Shown one piece after another: positions 41,035-63,810 of a DNA stretch of 64,000 bases. The position numbers and the translations under genes were made by a program. Source of the stretch: Hymenobacter sp. ISL-91 (GTDB taxonomy: Bacteria; Bacteroidota; Bacteroidia; Cytophagales; Hymenobacteraceae); contig NZ_JAGGPS010000026.1 in the NCBI RefSeq assembly GCF_018613725.1, forward strand, positions 71,835 to 135,834. The letters are read 5' to 3'. Every line of letters starts with the position of its first letter. The first letter of the stretch is position 1. The notes below the pieces were generated by a model. It was not told the origin of the DNA. It did no database searches and worked only from the letters and a program-made list of their open reading frames with translations.

Positions 41035-41077
41035 AAATCACAGATGTTGCAGATGATGTGGATGTCGCAGATTCGTT

Positions 41078-41210
41078 CTGAATCACAGCTGGTACAGATG
41101 ACTAGAATAACGCAGATCCGTTCTAGTAAGAGGGCCGAAAGACGATTGAACGAATCCGCTGCCAGAACGAATCTGCGTTATCCTAGTCATCTGTACCAGC
41201 TGTGATTCAG
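41078..41210. repeat. Intergenic inverted repeat overlapping an aminotransferase stop codon
   Basis: The left arm ctgaatcacagctggtacagatgac... pairs with a right arm ending gtaccagctgtgattcag; about 45 bp pair with few mismatches. The right end contains the TGA stop (minus strand) of the class V aminotransferase. The region 41041-41077 upstream carries degenerate cagatg units of the same kind. Confidence 0.8.
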
Positions 41211-57747: not shown

Positions 57748-58101
57748 ATGGCCATCATGATAACCGACGAGTGCATCAACTGTGGTGCCTGCGAACCGGA
57801 ATGCCCCAACACCGCTATTTACGAGGGCGGCGCCGCCTGGCGCTGGGCCGACGGCACCACCCTGAAAGACGTGCAGCTCGATGGCGGCCAGACTGTATCG
57901 GGCGTTGCGCCCCAAACGCCGGTTTCCGACGAGTACTACTACATCGTATCGGACAAGTGCACCGAGTGCGTGGGTTTCCACGAGGAACCCCAGTGTGCCG
58001 CCGTCTGCCCCGTAGACTGCTGCGTAGACGACCCTGACTACCGCGAGTCGCAGGAGAAGCTGGTCGCCAAGCAGCAGTGGCTCCACCAGATCACGAATTA
58101 A
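57748..58101 (+). CDS. 2[4Fe-4S] ferredoxin, Alvin (long-loop) type
   Basis: A 117-residue electron carrier. The first cluster is [12 protein letters not shown] at residues 9-20. The second has [18 protein letters not shown], with the eight-residue insertion typical of Alvin-type ferredoxins, followed by VDCC. A 30-residue helical tail ends QITN. The final codons and stop (gatcacgaattaa) repeat the start of the adjacent inverted repeat, so the C-terminus may have been rewritten by that element. It is divergent from the LuxC-like reductase. Confidence 0.95.
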
Positions 58102-58711
58102 GATCACGGATTAGCACGGATTTTAGCGGATTTCACGGATTTTGTAGACGGCTCCTGGCAACGGGGGCCGTTTGCTTGTTATTGGTAAAGCTAATGAGGC
58201 GGGTTGTGCAGGAAACGTTTGAATTTCAGACTTGCTTCTCCAAAATTCATGAGGAGCGCAACTTCAAGTCGATAAGCTTTTAAGTAATTTATTATTTGGG
58301 CGTGGTGAGCCTCGGTTATCTCATTTACTGCCTTCAGTTCGACTAATACATGCTTTTCAACCAGAAAATCGGCTCTTCTCGAACCTATATTCATCTGTTT
58401 ATAGAAAACCGGCAAGTGGATTTCGCCTTGAAAATTAAGGCCTGCCTGTTTTAGTTCAACCGCTAGACTGCGCTGATAAATTACCTCAGGAAAGCCGCTT
58501 CCTAGTTCTGTATGCACTCGCATTGCACAGCCAATTATAACTTTTGTCAGTTCGGTATACCGATTATCGAGCAGCATAATGGCAAACGGTTTTCGTGTAA
58601 TGCTGTAAAGTAGATAAACTCCGACAGCCAACTATAAACAAACGGCTCCCGTTGCCAGGAGCCGTCTACAAAATCCGTGAAATCCGCTAAAATCCGTGCT
58701 AATTCGTGATC
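58102..58711. mobile_element. Inverted-repeat element carrying a GxxExxY ORF
   Basis: The left arm 58102-58173 and the right arm 58640-58711 are inverted copies differing at only about two of 72 positions; weaker pairing continues a few bases inward. Each arm holds cacggatt units and a hairpin (acggctcctggcaacggg-gccgt) followed by T-rich sequence, so each arm can terminate transcription. The only gene between the arms is the GxxExxY ORF. The outer ends touch the stop codons of the two convergent flanking genes. There is no transposase, so how it moves, if it does, is unknown. Confidence 0.7.
58191..58577 (-). CDS. GxxExxY protein (PD-(D/E)XK nuclease-like fold)
   Basis: A 128-residue protein. 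The name motif is GSGFPEVIY near 29-37 (G-x-x-E-x-x-Y), followed by a predicted nuclease core with RADFLVEKHVLVELKAV near 72-88 carrying the Asp...Glu-x-Lys pattern. A helix (EAHHAQIINYLKAY) and the ending LLMNFGEASLKFKRFLH follow, typical of the family. Its GC content is visibly lower than its neighbours. Activity has not been established for the family as far as I know. The ATG at 58577 is chosen; the frame start at 58631 adds non-family residues. It lies entirely between the two arms of the inverted repeat. Confidence 0.88.
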   Translation of the reverse strand: MLLDNRYTELTKVIIGCAMRVHTELGSGFPEVIYQRSLAVELKQAGLNFQGEIHLPVFYKQMNIGSRRADFLVEKHVLVELKAVNEITEAHHAQIINYLKAYRLEVALLMNFGEASLKFKRFLHNPPH

Positions 58712-59873
58712 AGCTGCCGCAGTTAAAGTACTTGTCGTGCGCTGATTCAGGGATAAGCCGGAATTGGCTGAGTACCTTAATGGGCCAGCGGAGGCGGCGG
58801 ATGAGGGCGTAGTTGTTGGGGTAGGAGCGGAAGGTGGTGGGCGGCGTAGCCACAATTTGCTCGAAATCCTCGCGGCTCAGGCCCAGGCGCTTGATGCAGA
58901 GGTTGATGACCTTTTCATCCTCAATGCTATTGACGTGGCGCACTTTTTCCAGCGCATCCGGGCGGGTCATCTGGCCCGAGCGTACGAGGGCCGAGTAGTT
59001 AAACAGCCGCCGGTCGATGTTGAACTTGGTGCGGTTGAGGTAATAAATAACGCTCTGGTACAGGTCGTCGAAATAGTGAGCACCGGGGTTCACCCAGTCG
59101 AGCTCCTTCTGGAGCAATTGGTCTACATCGGCGCGCACATAATCGACGTGATAGAGCAGCGTGACGGTCTTGATGCGCCGGATGAAGGCGTAGTAGAACA
59201 TTTCCTTCACATCGAGATGAAAGCCTGGGTCGGCGGGCTTCCAGGGGCGCAGCGCCACGGTGCCGAACTGCTTGTGCACGGCCTTCAGGTACTTGCCGTC
59301 GAGGTAGTTCCAACTCAGCGGCGCAATGCCCTCAGTCCGAAACGACTGGCCAATAACAATACGCTGGATACCTTCCTTGGCGGCCACACCGTAGAGGGCC
59401 GTCGCAATTCCTACGTCGGTACCTTCCTCCATGTCGGGCACCGAGGCCTTCAGAAAGGCAATTTTCAGGTCTTTGGATTCGCGCCAGTCGGAGGTGATGG
59501 TGCGCATTTCCACGCCCAGCTTGCGGCAGGCCTTGGTCATGTTCTCGCCGGCTATGGGGTTGCCGAAGCCGTCGTTGAAATGCACAGCCAGCGGGCGAAG
59601 TCCCAACTTCACCACGCAGTACCAGAGCGTAAACGACGAGTCGCGCCCCCCGCTCACGCCCAGCACGCAATCGTAGCGTTTGCCGCGCCCCAGGCGCTTC
59701 ATGTCGGCCGTCATGGCCTGTACGTGCCGTTCGCCGGCCGCGCCCAGTGGGCAGGCGCGGTCCATTTTGTCGTGTAGCGCGCAGAAATTACACTCGCCCC
59801 GGGCATCGAAATTGATGCCGGGTACGGTGGTATCCATAATACAGCGGTTGCATTGCTGGTAGAGGTCAGCCAT
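58710..59873 (-). CDS. N-acetyl sugar amidotransferase (WbpG/PseA-like)
   Basis: A 387-residue ATP-dependent enzyme that converts an acetamido group on a nucleotide sugar or nonulosonate to an acetamidino group in the family. A zinc-type Cys set near the N-terminus (CNRCIMDT, CNFCALH) is followed by the PP-loop GVSGGRDSSFTLW near 70-82. The HFNDGFGNPIAGEN, TSDWRESKDLK and IGQSFRTEGIAPLSWNY motifs complete the adenylating core. It is probably part of LPS/O-antigen decoration. The TGA stop is at the outer end of the inverted-repeat element. The nitrilase-like gene lies 50 nt upstream on the same strand. Confidence 0.88.
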   Translation of the reverse strand: MADLYQQCNRCIMDTTVPGINFDARGECNFCALHDKMDRACPLGAAGERHVQAMTADMKRLGRGKRYDCVLGVSGGRDSSFTLWYCVVKLGLRPLAVHFNDGFGNPIAGENMTKACRKLGVEMRTITSDWRESKDLKIAFLKASVPDMEEGTDVGIATALYGVAAKEGIQRIVIGQSFRTEGIAPLSWNYLDGKYLKAVHKQFGTVALRPWKPADPGFHLDVKEMFYYAFIRRIKTVTLLYHVDYVRADVDQLLQKELDWVNPGAHYFDDLYQSVIYYLNRTKFNIDRRLFNYSALVRSGQMTRPDALEKVRHVNSIEDEKVINLCIKRLGLSREDFEQIVATPPTTFRSYPNNYALIRRLRWPIKVLSQFRLIPESAHDKYFNCGS

Positions 59874-61069: not shown

Positions 61070-61077
61070 TACTTTTG
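61070..61077 (+). promoter_or_regulatory. TAnnTTTG promoter element for valS
   Basis: TACTTTTG 33 nt before the valS ATG. Confidence 0.5.
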
Positions 61078-61110
61078 CGCCCATATCTGCCCTCGTTTTT
61101 ACTCCGACCG

Positions 61111-63810
61111 ATGACCATTGCCAAAACCTACACGCCCGCCGACGTTGAAGCCAAATGGTACCAGCGCTGGCAGGAGCAGGGCTTTTTCAAAGCCAAAGCT
61201 AACCCCCGCAAGCAGCCGTATTCGGTCGTGATTCCGCCGCCCAACGTAACGGGCGTGCTGCACATGGGCCACATGCTCAACAACACCATTCAGGATGTGC
61301 TGGTGCGTCGCGCCCGGATGCAGGGCTTCGAGGCCTGCTGGGTGCCCGGCACCGACCACGCCTCTATTGCCACCGAGGCCAAAGTAGTAGCGTTGCTGAA
61401 AGAGCAGGGCATCGAGAAGAAAGACCTCACCCGGGAACAGTTTCTGGAGCACGCCTTCGCCTGGAAAGAGAAGTACGGCGGCATTATTCTCGAGCAGCTC
61501 AAGCAGCTGGGCGCCTCCTGCGACTGGGACCGGACCCGCTTCACGATGGAGCCGGCCCTGACCGATGCCGTGCTGCGCACGTTCGTGGACTTGCACCAGA
61601 AAGGCCTCATTTACCGCGGGGTGCGGATGGTGAACTGGGACCCGCTGGGCCAGACGGCGTTGTCGGATGAGGAGGTCATTCCGAAAGATGTGATGGCCAA
61701 GATGTACCATCTGCGGTATGATTTTTCAACTGATAGCTCAGAGCCTTTAGCTGTTAGCTTTCCGTCGAACGAAGCTAACAGCCAACAGCTCAAAGCTAAC
61801 AGCTCAATAATTATAGCTACTTCCCGGCCCGAAACCATCATGGCCGACGTGGCGGTGGCCGTGAACCCGAATGACCCGCGGTATCAGCACCTGATTGGCC
61901 AGAAGTTGCGGATTCCGCTGCTGGGGCGTGAAATTCCGGTTATTGCCGACGAGTACGTGAGCATTGATTTTGGGACCGGGGCGCTGAAGGTGACGCCGGC
62001 CCACGATTTGAACGACTACGAGCTGGGCTTGAAGCACAACCTGCCCGTTATCGACATCCTGAACAACGACGGCACGCTCAACGAGAAAGCGGTGCTGTAC
62101 GTGGGCCAGGAGCGGTTTGCGGCCCGGCGCAACATTGTGAAGGATTTGGAGGAGGCCGGCCACCTGGTGAAGGTGGAGGAGTACGCCAGCATCGTGCAGA
62201 CGTCGGAGCGCACCAAGGCCGTAATTGAGCCGCGCCTGAGCATGCAGTGGTTCCTGAAAATGGAGCACCTGGCCAAGCCCGCGCTGGAGGTAGTGGAAAA
62301 CGATACGGTGCAGCTGCACCCGGCCAAGTTCAAGAACACCTACCGGGTATGGATGGAGAACGTGCGCGACTGGTGCATTTCGCGCCAGCTGTGGTGGGGC
62401 CAGCAGATTCCGGCCTACTATCTGCCCGACGGCACGTACGTGGTGGCCCTCACGCCCGACGAAGCGCTGGCCAATGCCCGCCGCCAGACCGGTAACGAGG
62501 CCCTGACGGCCGCCGATTTGCGCCAGGACGAGGACGTGCTCGATACCTGGTTTTCGTCGTGGCTGTGGCCGATTTCGGTGTTCGACGGCTTTGCCGACCC
62601 TGACAACGCCGATGTCAACTACTTCTACCCCACCAACGACCTGGTAACCGGCCCCGACATCCTGTTTTTCTGGGTGGCCCGCATGATTATGGCCGGCCTG
62701 GAATTCCGTAAGGAAGTGCCGTTTAAAAACGTGTACCTGACCGGCATCGTGCGCGATACGCAGGGCCGCAAGATGAGCAAGCAGCTCGGTAACTCGCCCG
62801 ACCCGCTCGACCTGATTGCCCAGTTCGGGGCCGACGGCGTGCGTACCGGCATGCTGTTCTCGGCCCCGGCCGGCAACGATTTGCTGTATGATGAGAAGCT
62901 GGTGGAGCAGGGCCGCAACTTCAGCAACAAGCTCTGGAACGCTTTCCGCCTAAGCAATGGCTGGGAGGTTGATGCCGAGTTGCCCTTCGTGAACGATAAG
63001 GCGGTGGAGTGGTTTGGCGCGCGCCTGCAGGCCGCCATAGCCGAGATGGACGAGCACTTCGCCAAGTTCCGGATTTCGGATGCCCTGATGACGGTGTACA
63101 AGCTGGTCTGGGATGACTACTGCTCGGTGTATCTGGAAATGGTGAAGCCCGCCTACCAGGCCCCCATTGACCCTGAAACCCTGCGCCACACCACGGCCTA
63201 CCTCGAAACGCTGCTGCGCCTGCTGCACCCGTTCATGCCGTTTATTACGGAGGAAATCTGGCACGAGCTAAAAGAGCGCGGCCCCAAGGAGTACATATGC
63301 GTGGCCGCCTGGCCCAAGCCCCAGCCCGTGGCCGAGGCACCCGCGCTGCTGGCCCGCATGGCCCAGGCGTTGGAAATCGTGGGCGGCGTGCGCACCATCC
63401 GCAACCAGAAGGGCCTGGGCCCCAACAAACCCCTGACGCTGGCTGCCAAAACCACCGATGCTGCGCTGCAAACGCTGCTGACGGACTACGCCGGTATCAT
63501 CCGTAAGCTGGCCGCCCTCACCGATATTTCGGTGGTAGACGCTGCCCCGGCGGCCGCCGTGGGTTTCGTGGCTGGCGGGGCCGAGTTCTTCGTGCCCCTC
63601 GAAGGCCAGATTGACCTCGGAGCCGAAAAGGAGCGCCTCACCAAGGAGCTGGAGTATGCCCAGGGCTTCCGCGACTCGGTGGGCAAAAAGCTCAGCAACG
63701 AGAGGTTTGTGGCCAACGCCAAGCCCGAGCTGGTAGCGCGCGAGCGGCAGAAGCTGGCCGATGCCGAAGCCCAGATTGCCGCCCTGGAGCAGCAGCTGGC
63801 GGGGCTGTAG
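61111..63810 (+). CDS. valS: Valine-tRNA ligase
   Basis: An 899-residue class I aminoacyl-tRNA synthetase that charges tRNA-Val. The N-terminus MTIAKTYTPADVEAKWYQRW is followed by the HIGH-type motif HMGHMLNN near 51-58 and the KMSKQ signature (GRKMSKQLGNSPDPLD) near 553. The CP1 editing domain has the ATSRPETIMADVAVAVNP region. An anticodon-binding domain and a C-terminal coiled-coil arm (about 830-899) end the protein. Residues about 207-231 (STDSSEPLAVSFPSN... SSII) are an unusual Ser/Asn/Ala-rich insert before ATSRPET. It is encoded by a palindromic sequence and would be expected to be a surface loop. Confidence 0.95.
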   Translation: MTIAKTYTPADVEAKWYQRWQEQGFFKAKANPRKQPYSVVIPPPNVTGVLHMGHMLNNTIQDVLVRRARMQGFEACWVPGTDHASIATEAKVVALLKEQGIEKKDLTREQFLEHAFAWKEKYGGIILEQLKQLGASCDWDRTRFTMEPALTDAVLRTFVDLHQKGLIYRGVRMVNWDPLGQTALSDEEVIPKDVMAKMYHLRYDFSTDSSEPLAVSFPSNEANSQQLKANSSIIIATSRPETIMADVAVAVNPNDPRYQHLIGQKLRIPLLGREIPVIADEYVSIDFGTGALKVTPAHDLNDYELGLKHNLPVIDILNNDGTLNEKAVLYVGQERFAARRNIVKDLEEAGHLVKVEEYASIVQTSERTKAVIEPRLSMQWFLKMEHLAKPALEVVENDTVQLHPAKFKNTYRVWMENVRDWCISRQLWWGQQIPAYYLPDGTYVVALTPDEALANARRQTGNEALTAADLRQDEDVLDTWFSSWLWPISVFDGFADPDNADVNYFYPTNDLVTGPDILFFWVARMIMAGLEFRKEVPFKNVYLTGIVRDTQGRKMSKQLGNSPDPLDLIAQFGADGVRTGMLFSAPAGNDLLYDEKLVEQGRNFSNKLWNAFRLSNGWEVDAELPFVNDKAVEWFGARLQAAIAEMDEHFAKFRISDALMTVYKLVWDDYCSVYLEMVKPAYQAPIDPETLRHTTAYLETLLRLLHPFMPFITEEIWHELKERGPKEYICVAAWPKPQPVAEAPALLARMAQALEIVGGVRTIRNQKGLGPNKPLTLAAKTTDAALQTLLTDYAGIIRKLAALTDISVVDAAPAAAVGFVAGGAEFFVPLEGQIDLGAEKERLTKELEYAQGFRDSVGKKLSNERFVANAKPELVARERQKLADAEAQIAALEQQLAGL
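61727..61806. repeat. In-frame palindromic repeat inside valS
   Basis: gctgttagctt (61750-61760) pairs with aagctaacagc (61772-61782), and a direct second copy lies at 61793-61803. The ten-odd short agcta/taaca units look like intergenic repeat DNA rather than coding sequence, yet the frame stays open. Confidence 0.7.

Follow-up and report, generated by a model that had tools for sequence, protein, structure and literature searches.

The window analyzed here is a 64-kb stretch (64,000 nt) of contig C19 from a 4.03-Mb Hymenobacter genome. Between a ferredoxin gene and an amidotransferase gene that converge on each other, it carries a 610-bp segment in which one small gene of the GxxExxY family lies between two inverted repeats, here called arms, each with an array of short words in its outer part. 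The features of this locus, together with one related copy elsewhere in the window, are as follows.

57748-58101, + strand: YfhL-family 4Fe-4S ferredoxin gene, the convergent left neighbor (ORF, profile)
58090-58099, + strand: probable extra word-like sequence, ATCACGAATT, in the ferredoxin 3' end beside the left arm (sequence reading)
58102-58185, + strand: left inverted arm, 84 nt (inverted-repeat search)
58102-58143, + strand: left-arm word array, four CACGGATT/GCGGATT-type words at about 10-bp spacing, starting GATCACGG (read from the sequence; periodicity from 102 genus arms)
58144-58171, + strand: left-arm inner end, with GTAG ahead of a GC-rich hairpin (sequence, folding)
58191-58577, - strand: GxxExxY gene (TIGR04256/PF13366), 128 aa, predicted PD-(D/E)XK fold with E31, D70, E80, and K82 (profiles, model, alignment)
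58628-58711, - strand: right inverted arm, 84 nt (inverted-repeat search)
58642-58669, - strand: inner end of the right arm, GTAG and a GC-rich hairpin (sequence, folding)
58670-58711, - strand: right-arm word array (read from the sequence, arm comparison)
58710-59873, - strand: WbuX-type N-acetyl sugar amidotransferase gene, the convergent right neighbor (ORF, profile)
41035-41209, no strand assigned: gene-free inverted pair of the arm family that accompanies the contig C6 GxxExxY gene, with ACAGATG words (arm-family search of the source genome)

The two arms are 93% complementary, with 442 nt between them, and their outer 46 nt are 98% alike. A first-pass annotation made from the sequence had described near-identical arms of 72 bp with about two differences. 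It had also placed the outer arm ends against both convergent stop codons, and this is what we find: the ferredoxin stop codon (58099-58101) directly adjoins the left arm, and that of the amidotransferase (58710-58712) shares 2 nt with the right arm. The hairpin it noted in each arm is likewise seen on folding, at -34.5 kcal/mol (z -4.3) on the + strand of the left arm and -38.3 kcal/mol (z -3.9) on the - strand of the right. The arms form the sole inverted repeat of at least 20 nt within the 1.8 kb searched and match other places in their own genome with E values down to 5.7e-18, so the repeat is above chance. Besides the GxxExxY frame, for which an alternative TTG start gives a longer ORF of 146 aa, no ORF of at least 80 aa lies wholly between the outer arm ends, in keeping with the earlier description of a lone 128-codon gene with no transposase. 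A search of 57900-58900 against Rfam gave nothing at gathering scores, and an RNA-family reading was dropped on that ground.

The encoded protein scores 139.6 bits against TIGR04256 (cut-off 35) and 137.1 bits against PF13366 (cut-off 22), itself a PD-(D/E)XK family. Its signature motif reads GFPEVIY, and G28, E31, and Y34 are present in all 215 GxxExxY proteins, from a set of 222, that were long enough for alignment. At the putative active site, E31 and K82 are kept in 215 of these 215, D70 in 214, and E80 in 213; we take the four to be the catalytic residues of a PD-(D/E)XK nuclease, an ExK-type site with acidic residues whose catalytic role is putative. An AF2 model (pLDDT 94) gave no Foldseek match at E ≤0.001, the best being SSO0001 at 0.0011, which we take to be a Cas4. 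SSO0001 was also the best solved match in VIA-align (Z 9.0, rmsd 5.1, 103 aligned), ahead of the restriction enzyme R.SwaI (Z 8.4, rmsd 3.5, 116 aligned) and of Hjc, whose Z of 6.3 lies in the range below 8 that may reflect just a shared arrangement. The predicted structure and PF13366 membership together point to the PD-(D/E)XK fold that the first-pass annotation had proposed. Cas4 is thus the closest solved fold, but the window protein scores below the Cas4 cut-off (Pfam Cas_Cas4 17 bits, cut-off 22.7; PADLOC Cas4b E 1.4e-4), and because these profile matches are only weak a defense-system reading was dropped. A phage-protein reading was also set aside, the PHROG matches being one weak hit of unknown function (E 6.8e-5) and another at E 0.053. 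Neither the window protein nor five others attain the cut-off of any Pfam profile but PF13366, and the protein encoded between the window arms is a PF13366 member, not a Y1 (IS200/IS605-like) transposase.

The source genome encodes three GxxExxY genes, and all three lie between inverted repeats, each with a word of its own: CACGGATT at the window gene, CGCAGAGG/CGCAGTG at the gene on contig C54, and ACAGATG at the gene on contig C6. For every one of them, gene-free copies of its own arm family are dispersed through the genome. The window family has 11 gene-free pairs of 162-262 bp and a further five single or decayed copies, while the C54 and C6 families occupy further gene-free places, several of which are near-perfect hairpins. 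Two CGCAG copies (L333 and L334) have the opposite polarity.

This pairing of gene and repeat extends through the genus, where a profile search finds TIGR04256 in 70 of 101 Hymenobacter genomes. We took 112 genes from the listed matches by descending score, mostly skipping fragments and copies with stops, and 108 of them had an inverted match above 30 bits between their 700-bp flanks, compared with none of 157 control windows shifted by 1300 bp (650-bp flanks; maximum 29.7). The remaining four loci scored 22.6 (L048), 21.1 (L057), 0 (L139, where a contig end lies 289 bp away), and 21.1 (L152). Since the shifted windows lie mostly inside genes, flanks of different loci were cross-paired as a second control. 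Upstream and downstream flanks of the same gene matched with a median of 62.5 bits, whereas only 3 of 206 flank pairs drawn between clades reached 30 bits (largest 38.3); within one word type, 31 of 93 did. In competition with as many as 12 same-type arms from elsewhere, the downstream arm of the same gene ranked first as partner in only 60 of 104 loci. A test for word arrays found them on both sides of 45 of the 112 genes and of none of 158 controls, the yield being limited because the test word omits several of the genus words.

Outside the genus, 39 of 77 named-record loci from several phyla (80 loci, three dropped for too-short flanks) had an inverted repeat of at least 35 bits, against none of 279 controls, of which four exceeded 30 bits with 34.0 as the largest. 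A few records of this named set are from Hymenobacter, which makes it overlap the genus set; many of the others are metagenome-assembled genomes whose taxon names may err. The controls, again with 650-bp flanks, were drawn from the named loci only, the 30 loci of a separate Bacteroidota set being too short for controls; 12 of these 30 reached 35 bits, bringing the wider set to 51 of 107 by the inverted repeat alone. Word arrays stood on both sides of 43 of 78 named loci and 19 of 30 Bacteroidota loci versus 0 of 279 controls, 12 of which had them on one side; the same test run for the opposite word orientation was positive on both sides at 8 of 78 and 2 of 30. Taking either test, 83 of 108 loci in the wider set carry the repeats. 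The first-pass annotation had reckoned the link coincidental should most GxxExxY genes lack flanking inverted repeats, and most of those examined here have them. The loci of at least 35 bits are named as Bacteroidota, Cyanobacteria, Planctomycetota, SAR324, Acidobacteria, Verrucomicrobia, Desulfuromonadaceae, Desulfobacteraceae, and Promineifilum, and at several loci below the inverted-repeat threshold words are visible by eye.

The arms have a common anatomy. Almost every one of the 108 arms listed shows, by eye, a short word present in about four copies, and across 102 genus arms self-matching rises to 0.36 and 0.34 at shifts of 9 and 10 bp and to 0.33 at 21 bp, against 0.26 after shuffling; the words are thus spaced by about one turn of the DNA helix. 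Their type follows the protein. When proteins were assigned to two clades by a simple motif, leaving six unclassed, the 41 clade-A loci had GAT-words exclusively and the 61 clade-B loci GAG, GTG, or AAG words exclusively, and none of these 102 combined a protein of one clade with a word of the other. When six word types are mapped onto a protein tree (111 proteins, 107 labeled), 12 changes of type suffice compared with 56.9 for shuffled labels, and none of 200 shuffles came as low. Because arm and gene are linked, this agreement shows joint inheritance and does not by itself amount to recognition. The clades also differ at the inner edge of the array, where 14 of 43 clade-A loci (the window's at 58144-58147) and 0 of 65 clade-B loci have GTRG immediately past the fourth word of each arm; in some clade-A elements a GC-rich hairpin comes after the GTRG. 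At many clade-B loci the upstream arm ends just ahead of the gene start. Many arms adjoin stop codons, which by a rough ORF call mostly lie no more than about 15 bases from the arm edge; we used these distances, with caution, in place of gene orientation, which is unreliable when taken from the longest ORF in GC-rich DNA (one neighbor, L032, was miscalled).

The arrays are common across the genus. Triple CGGATT arrays occur in 108 of 120 genomes, with none for the reversed pattern in the same 120, and the reversed CGCAGDG pattern gave 0-5 matches per strand; all such counts are pattern matches, which may overlap and which include the gene's own arms. The median number of CGGATT matches was 34.5 where a clade-A gene was confirmed (34 genomes) versus 3 where GxxExxY gave no match (31 genomes; p 9e-10), and that of CGCAGDG matches was 14 in 48 clade-B genomes versus 4 in the same 31 (p 4e-6), these p-values and those below being optimistic because the genomes are related. 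CGGATT matches were also higher in nine A-only than in 23 B-only genomes (p 0.015), the latter having a median of 17, with clades assigned from the fetched genes, which are a part of all the genes present. CGCAGDG matches did not differ significantly between B-only and A-only genomes (p 0.11), and 7 of the 31 genomes without a GxxExxY match have more than 10 CGGATT matches each.

In four of the six genomes with listed positions, the 67 arrays among the matches listed form 18 neighboring CGGATT pairs within 2.5 kb, 31 arrays having no partner under the strict pattern. All 18 listed pairs have the +- polarity of the gene-bearing element, and 16 of them, at 114-231 bp, are too short to hold a gene; one encloses a GxxExxY gene and one encloses other genes. 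The first-pass annotation had asked whether the same arms flank unrelated genes just as often, and with one such pair in the 18 listed they do not. That sole case (L325 1008-3380) is an inverted pair 2.36 kb (2,358 bp) apart whose contents look like unrelated genes. CGCAGDG pairs from two genomes comprise 15 in the +- arrangement, of which one encloses GxxExxY, and three in the -+ arrangement, so polarity is not absolute. The interior of one array pair (L326, G074:C3:476754-476967) contains a unit of about 20 bp (GGATTTTGTAGACGGGCTGC) repeated in tandem.

Evidence of movement comes from two gene-free copies, L024 and L026 on contigs C30 and C2. Their arms and interiors match, the latter at 89% over 73 bp, both end at GATCACGG and CCGTGATC, and their flanks are unrelated; the C2 copy is nested in an older array, as is its ortholog in G074. 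Here a gene-free unit with terminal inverted repeats has been duplicated to a new site in the manner of a MITE, and this is the one clear case. A hairpin of the GCCACCTC type is shared by the interiors of L024, L026, L031, and L029, and, because its exact pattern does not occur in the 64-kb window, it may be part of the unit. No target-site duplication was evident by eye in the 11 paired copies or in L024/L026.

Orthologous junctions show the arrays in several states. The ferredoxin/amidotransferase junction was readable in 28 of 30 loci, window included. It holds a GxxExxY gene in the window, G074, and G087, arms around a terminator with no gene in several loci, and a bare terminator in the others, among them the near relatives G099, G004, and G067, so that the empty sites sought by the first-pass annotation do exist. 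In L272, L273, L275, and L281 the junction measures 807-904 bp, with word-like repeats by the ferredoxin stop that are decayed in L281. At the same junction, relatives have word arms of the GGTGA type (L282, L286, L289, and L291) or the ATGTG type (L290 and L294), and 33 of 61 genomes contain GGTGARRT triples, partly as short inverted pairs. A second junction, readable in 27 of 30 loci and lying between genes that we take, from their translated ends, to be ndk and a transporter gene, likewise occurs in bare, armed, and one-armed states. In L342 and L348, this junction has GAT-type words on one side of the terminator and AGC-type words on the other, and two array classes can therefore share one site.

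Within one clade, an orthologous terminator stem is conserved while its arms are of the CGGATT type, of the CAGATT type, or absent, so arms are also gained and lost around a resident terminator. Single arms occur as well. With the orthologous terminator retained inside differing arms and single arms present, we rejected the idea that every array was inserted as one unit together with its interior. The gene-bearing copies are mostly inherited vertically and move rarely: among 228 protein pairs of at least 80% identity, both flanks are common to 169, one or part to 31, and neither to 28. The possibly mobile cassette envisaged by the first-pass annotation is supported, empty sites being present at the orthologous junction, but the 169 of 228 pairs that sit at the same locus speak against its being very mobile.

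The two arms of a copy resemble each other more than they resemble arms of other copies. Among copies with two readable arms (the three gene-bearing ones included, L335 and L336 left out), mean within-copy similarity compared with that of re-paired arms was 0.93 versus 0.91 for 12 CGGATT copies, 0.96 versus 0.80 for five CAGATG copies, and 0.94 versus 0.91 for five CGCAG copies, with 0, 22, and 82 of 2000 shuffles, respectively, as good. Some copies have specific variants shared by both arms, such as GATGAGC in L026. Such likeness would be expected from a hairpin intermediate or from hairpin-templated repair; alternatively, it may stem from recent insertion from distinct sources.

On balance, we favor the view that the 610-bp segment in the window belongs, in a gene-bearing form, to a family of small repeat elements and that its GxxExxY protein is a word-specific nuclease driving their copying, a reading we hold to be somewhat better than even. 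The protein, as a putative PD-(D/E)XK nuclease, would bind the arrays of about four words in each arm and cut in or beside them, and this cutting would drive the copying of its own element. Gene-free arm pairs may be copied in trans as REPIN-like satellites, as the correlation between array counts and gene presence suggests, and the two arms of an element may be copied from one another via a fold-back (hairpin) intermediate. If true, this would provide a role for a widespread family of unknown function and an owner for common unexplained intergenic repeats, a small nuclease would replace the transposase in a REPIN-like system, and, with one word per protein, there would be many natural protein-DNA specificity pairs. 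In the open-access literature searched, we found no account of a GxxExxY-repeat pairing; TIGR04256 and PDDEXK_3 go unnamed there, PF13366 is rarely named, and the arm word strings gave unrelated matches only. GxxExxY itself is named there as a viral gene and beside a reverse transcriptase, at the place where cas4 is expected (a gene annotation in the available excerpt of PMC8934634).

The closest known parallel is the RAYT/REPIN system, described in the available portions of PMC2817692 and PMC3116915 as a small gene between inverted repeats, with dispersed inverted gene-free doublets and a repeat type linked to the protein. The GxxExxY elements resemble it in all three respects, and the analogy drawn by the first-pass annotation fits as far as organization goes. 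The proteins differ, RAYT being a Y1 HUH transposase and the GxxExxY protein PD-(D/E)XK nuclease-like, and so do the repeats, a REP being a single GTAG-headed palindrome and the arms being arrays of about four words, some clade-A arms having an inner GTRG. By organization the elements would thus be a new variant beside RAYT/REPIN, whereas by enzyme they are no RAYT. Proteins of the Rpn/Transposase_31 family (PF04754) share the PD-(D/E)XK fold, but PF13366, not PF04754, is the family that the window protein matches. In the part of the literature available, Rpn/Transposase_31 proteins have been linked to recombination and horizontal transfer.

Of the rival explanations the strongest, which we consider unlikely, is that the arrays are moved by other machinery, be it recombination, hairpin-based template switching, or a Y1/HUH transposase of the RAYT kind, with GxxExxY as a passenger or parasite settling in array pairs or as no more than their regulator. 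A Y1 transposase encoded elsewhere is its main form, suggested by the GTRG beside the fourth word of some clade-A arms, in some followed by a hairpin, which resembles the GT(A/G)G head of REPs (in the available portion of PMC2817692). Array matches persist in some genomes lacking the gene, and different word families can surround the same orthologous terminator, as this explanation would also have it. However, clade-B arms have no GTRG at the inner place, word type tracks the GxxExxY clade, genomes with the gene have more array matches, and a passenger would have no need of a putative active site that no fewer than 213 of 215 proteins retain.

Slightly less probable again is that the arrays are resident 3'-end elements that serve to end transcripts, stabilize mRNA, or structure the chromosome, and that GxxExxY binds them; selection would maintain them, and recombination would spread them only slowly. 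The many arms that abut stop codons (by the rough ORF call) and enclose terminator hairpins speak for it, as do the mostly syntenic gene-bearing loci, and the position of the clade-B upstream arm just before the gene start would make autoregulation possible. Resident elements sit poorly, however, with arms that are present, absent, or differently worded at one junction in close relatives, with a unit duplicated to unrelated flanks, and with conserved residues of a nuclease-type active site. A merely coincidental pairing of gene and repeat is hardly credible after the inverted-repeat, word-array, and cross-pairing tests, both within the genus and beyond it, and we rejected it.

More tentatively, and with less than even confidence, the nuclease reading may be extended to the phylum-spanning scale. 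GxxExxY proteins with arrays phased at about one helical turn would then constitute transposase-free mobile repeats run by a PD-(D/E)XK protein, with arms copied by fold-back, and S23/TIGR02436 would form a parallel class with words of its own, the two together explaining the CGCAAAG-, CACAGAG-, and CGGATT-type repeats of many bacteria. The Coxiella 23S rRNA intervening sequence is a selfish element of 428 nt whose single small ORF lies within terminal inverted repeats (available text of PMC4990558). Such intervening sequences with an S23/four-helix-bundle ORF, in Coxiella and Leptospira, are like the GxxExxY elements in having a small ORF between inverted repeats; they differ in their unrelated protein and other words, and the GxxExxY elements read here sit between protein genes and not in rRNA. 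In Hymenobacter, TIGR02436 (four-helix-bundle) genes have inverted word-array flanks above 30 bits in 32 of 50 cases versus 0 of 100 controls with shorter, 400-bp flanks, and the words around them (L295-L324 and L370-L389) are TTAGTTGTCAG, AGTGCTT, and GAGAACT. Within the window, words of the AGCTAACAGC type, as in the arms of the source-genome TIGR02436 gene L382, are found at 61749-61804, inside a 911-aa ORF (61075-63810) that presumably encodes a valyl-tRNA synthetase.
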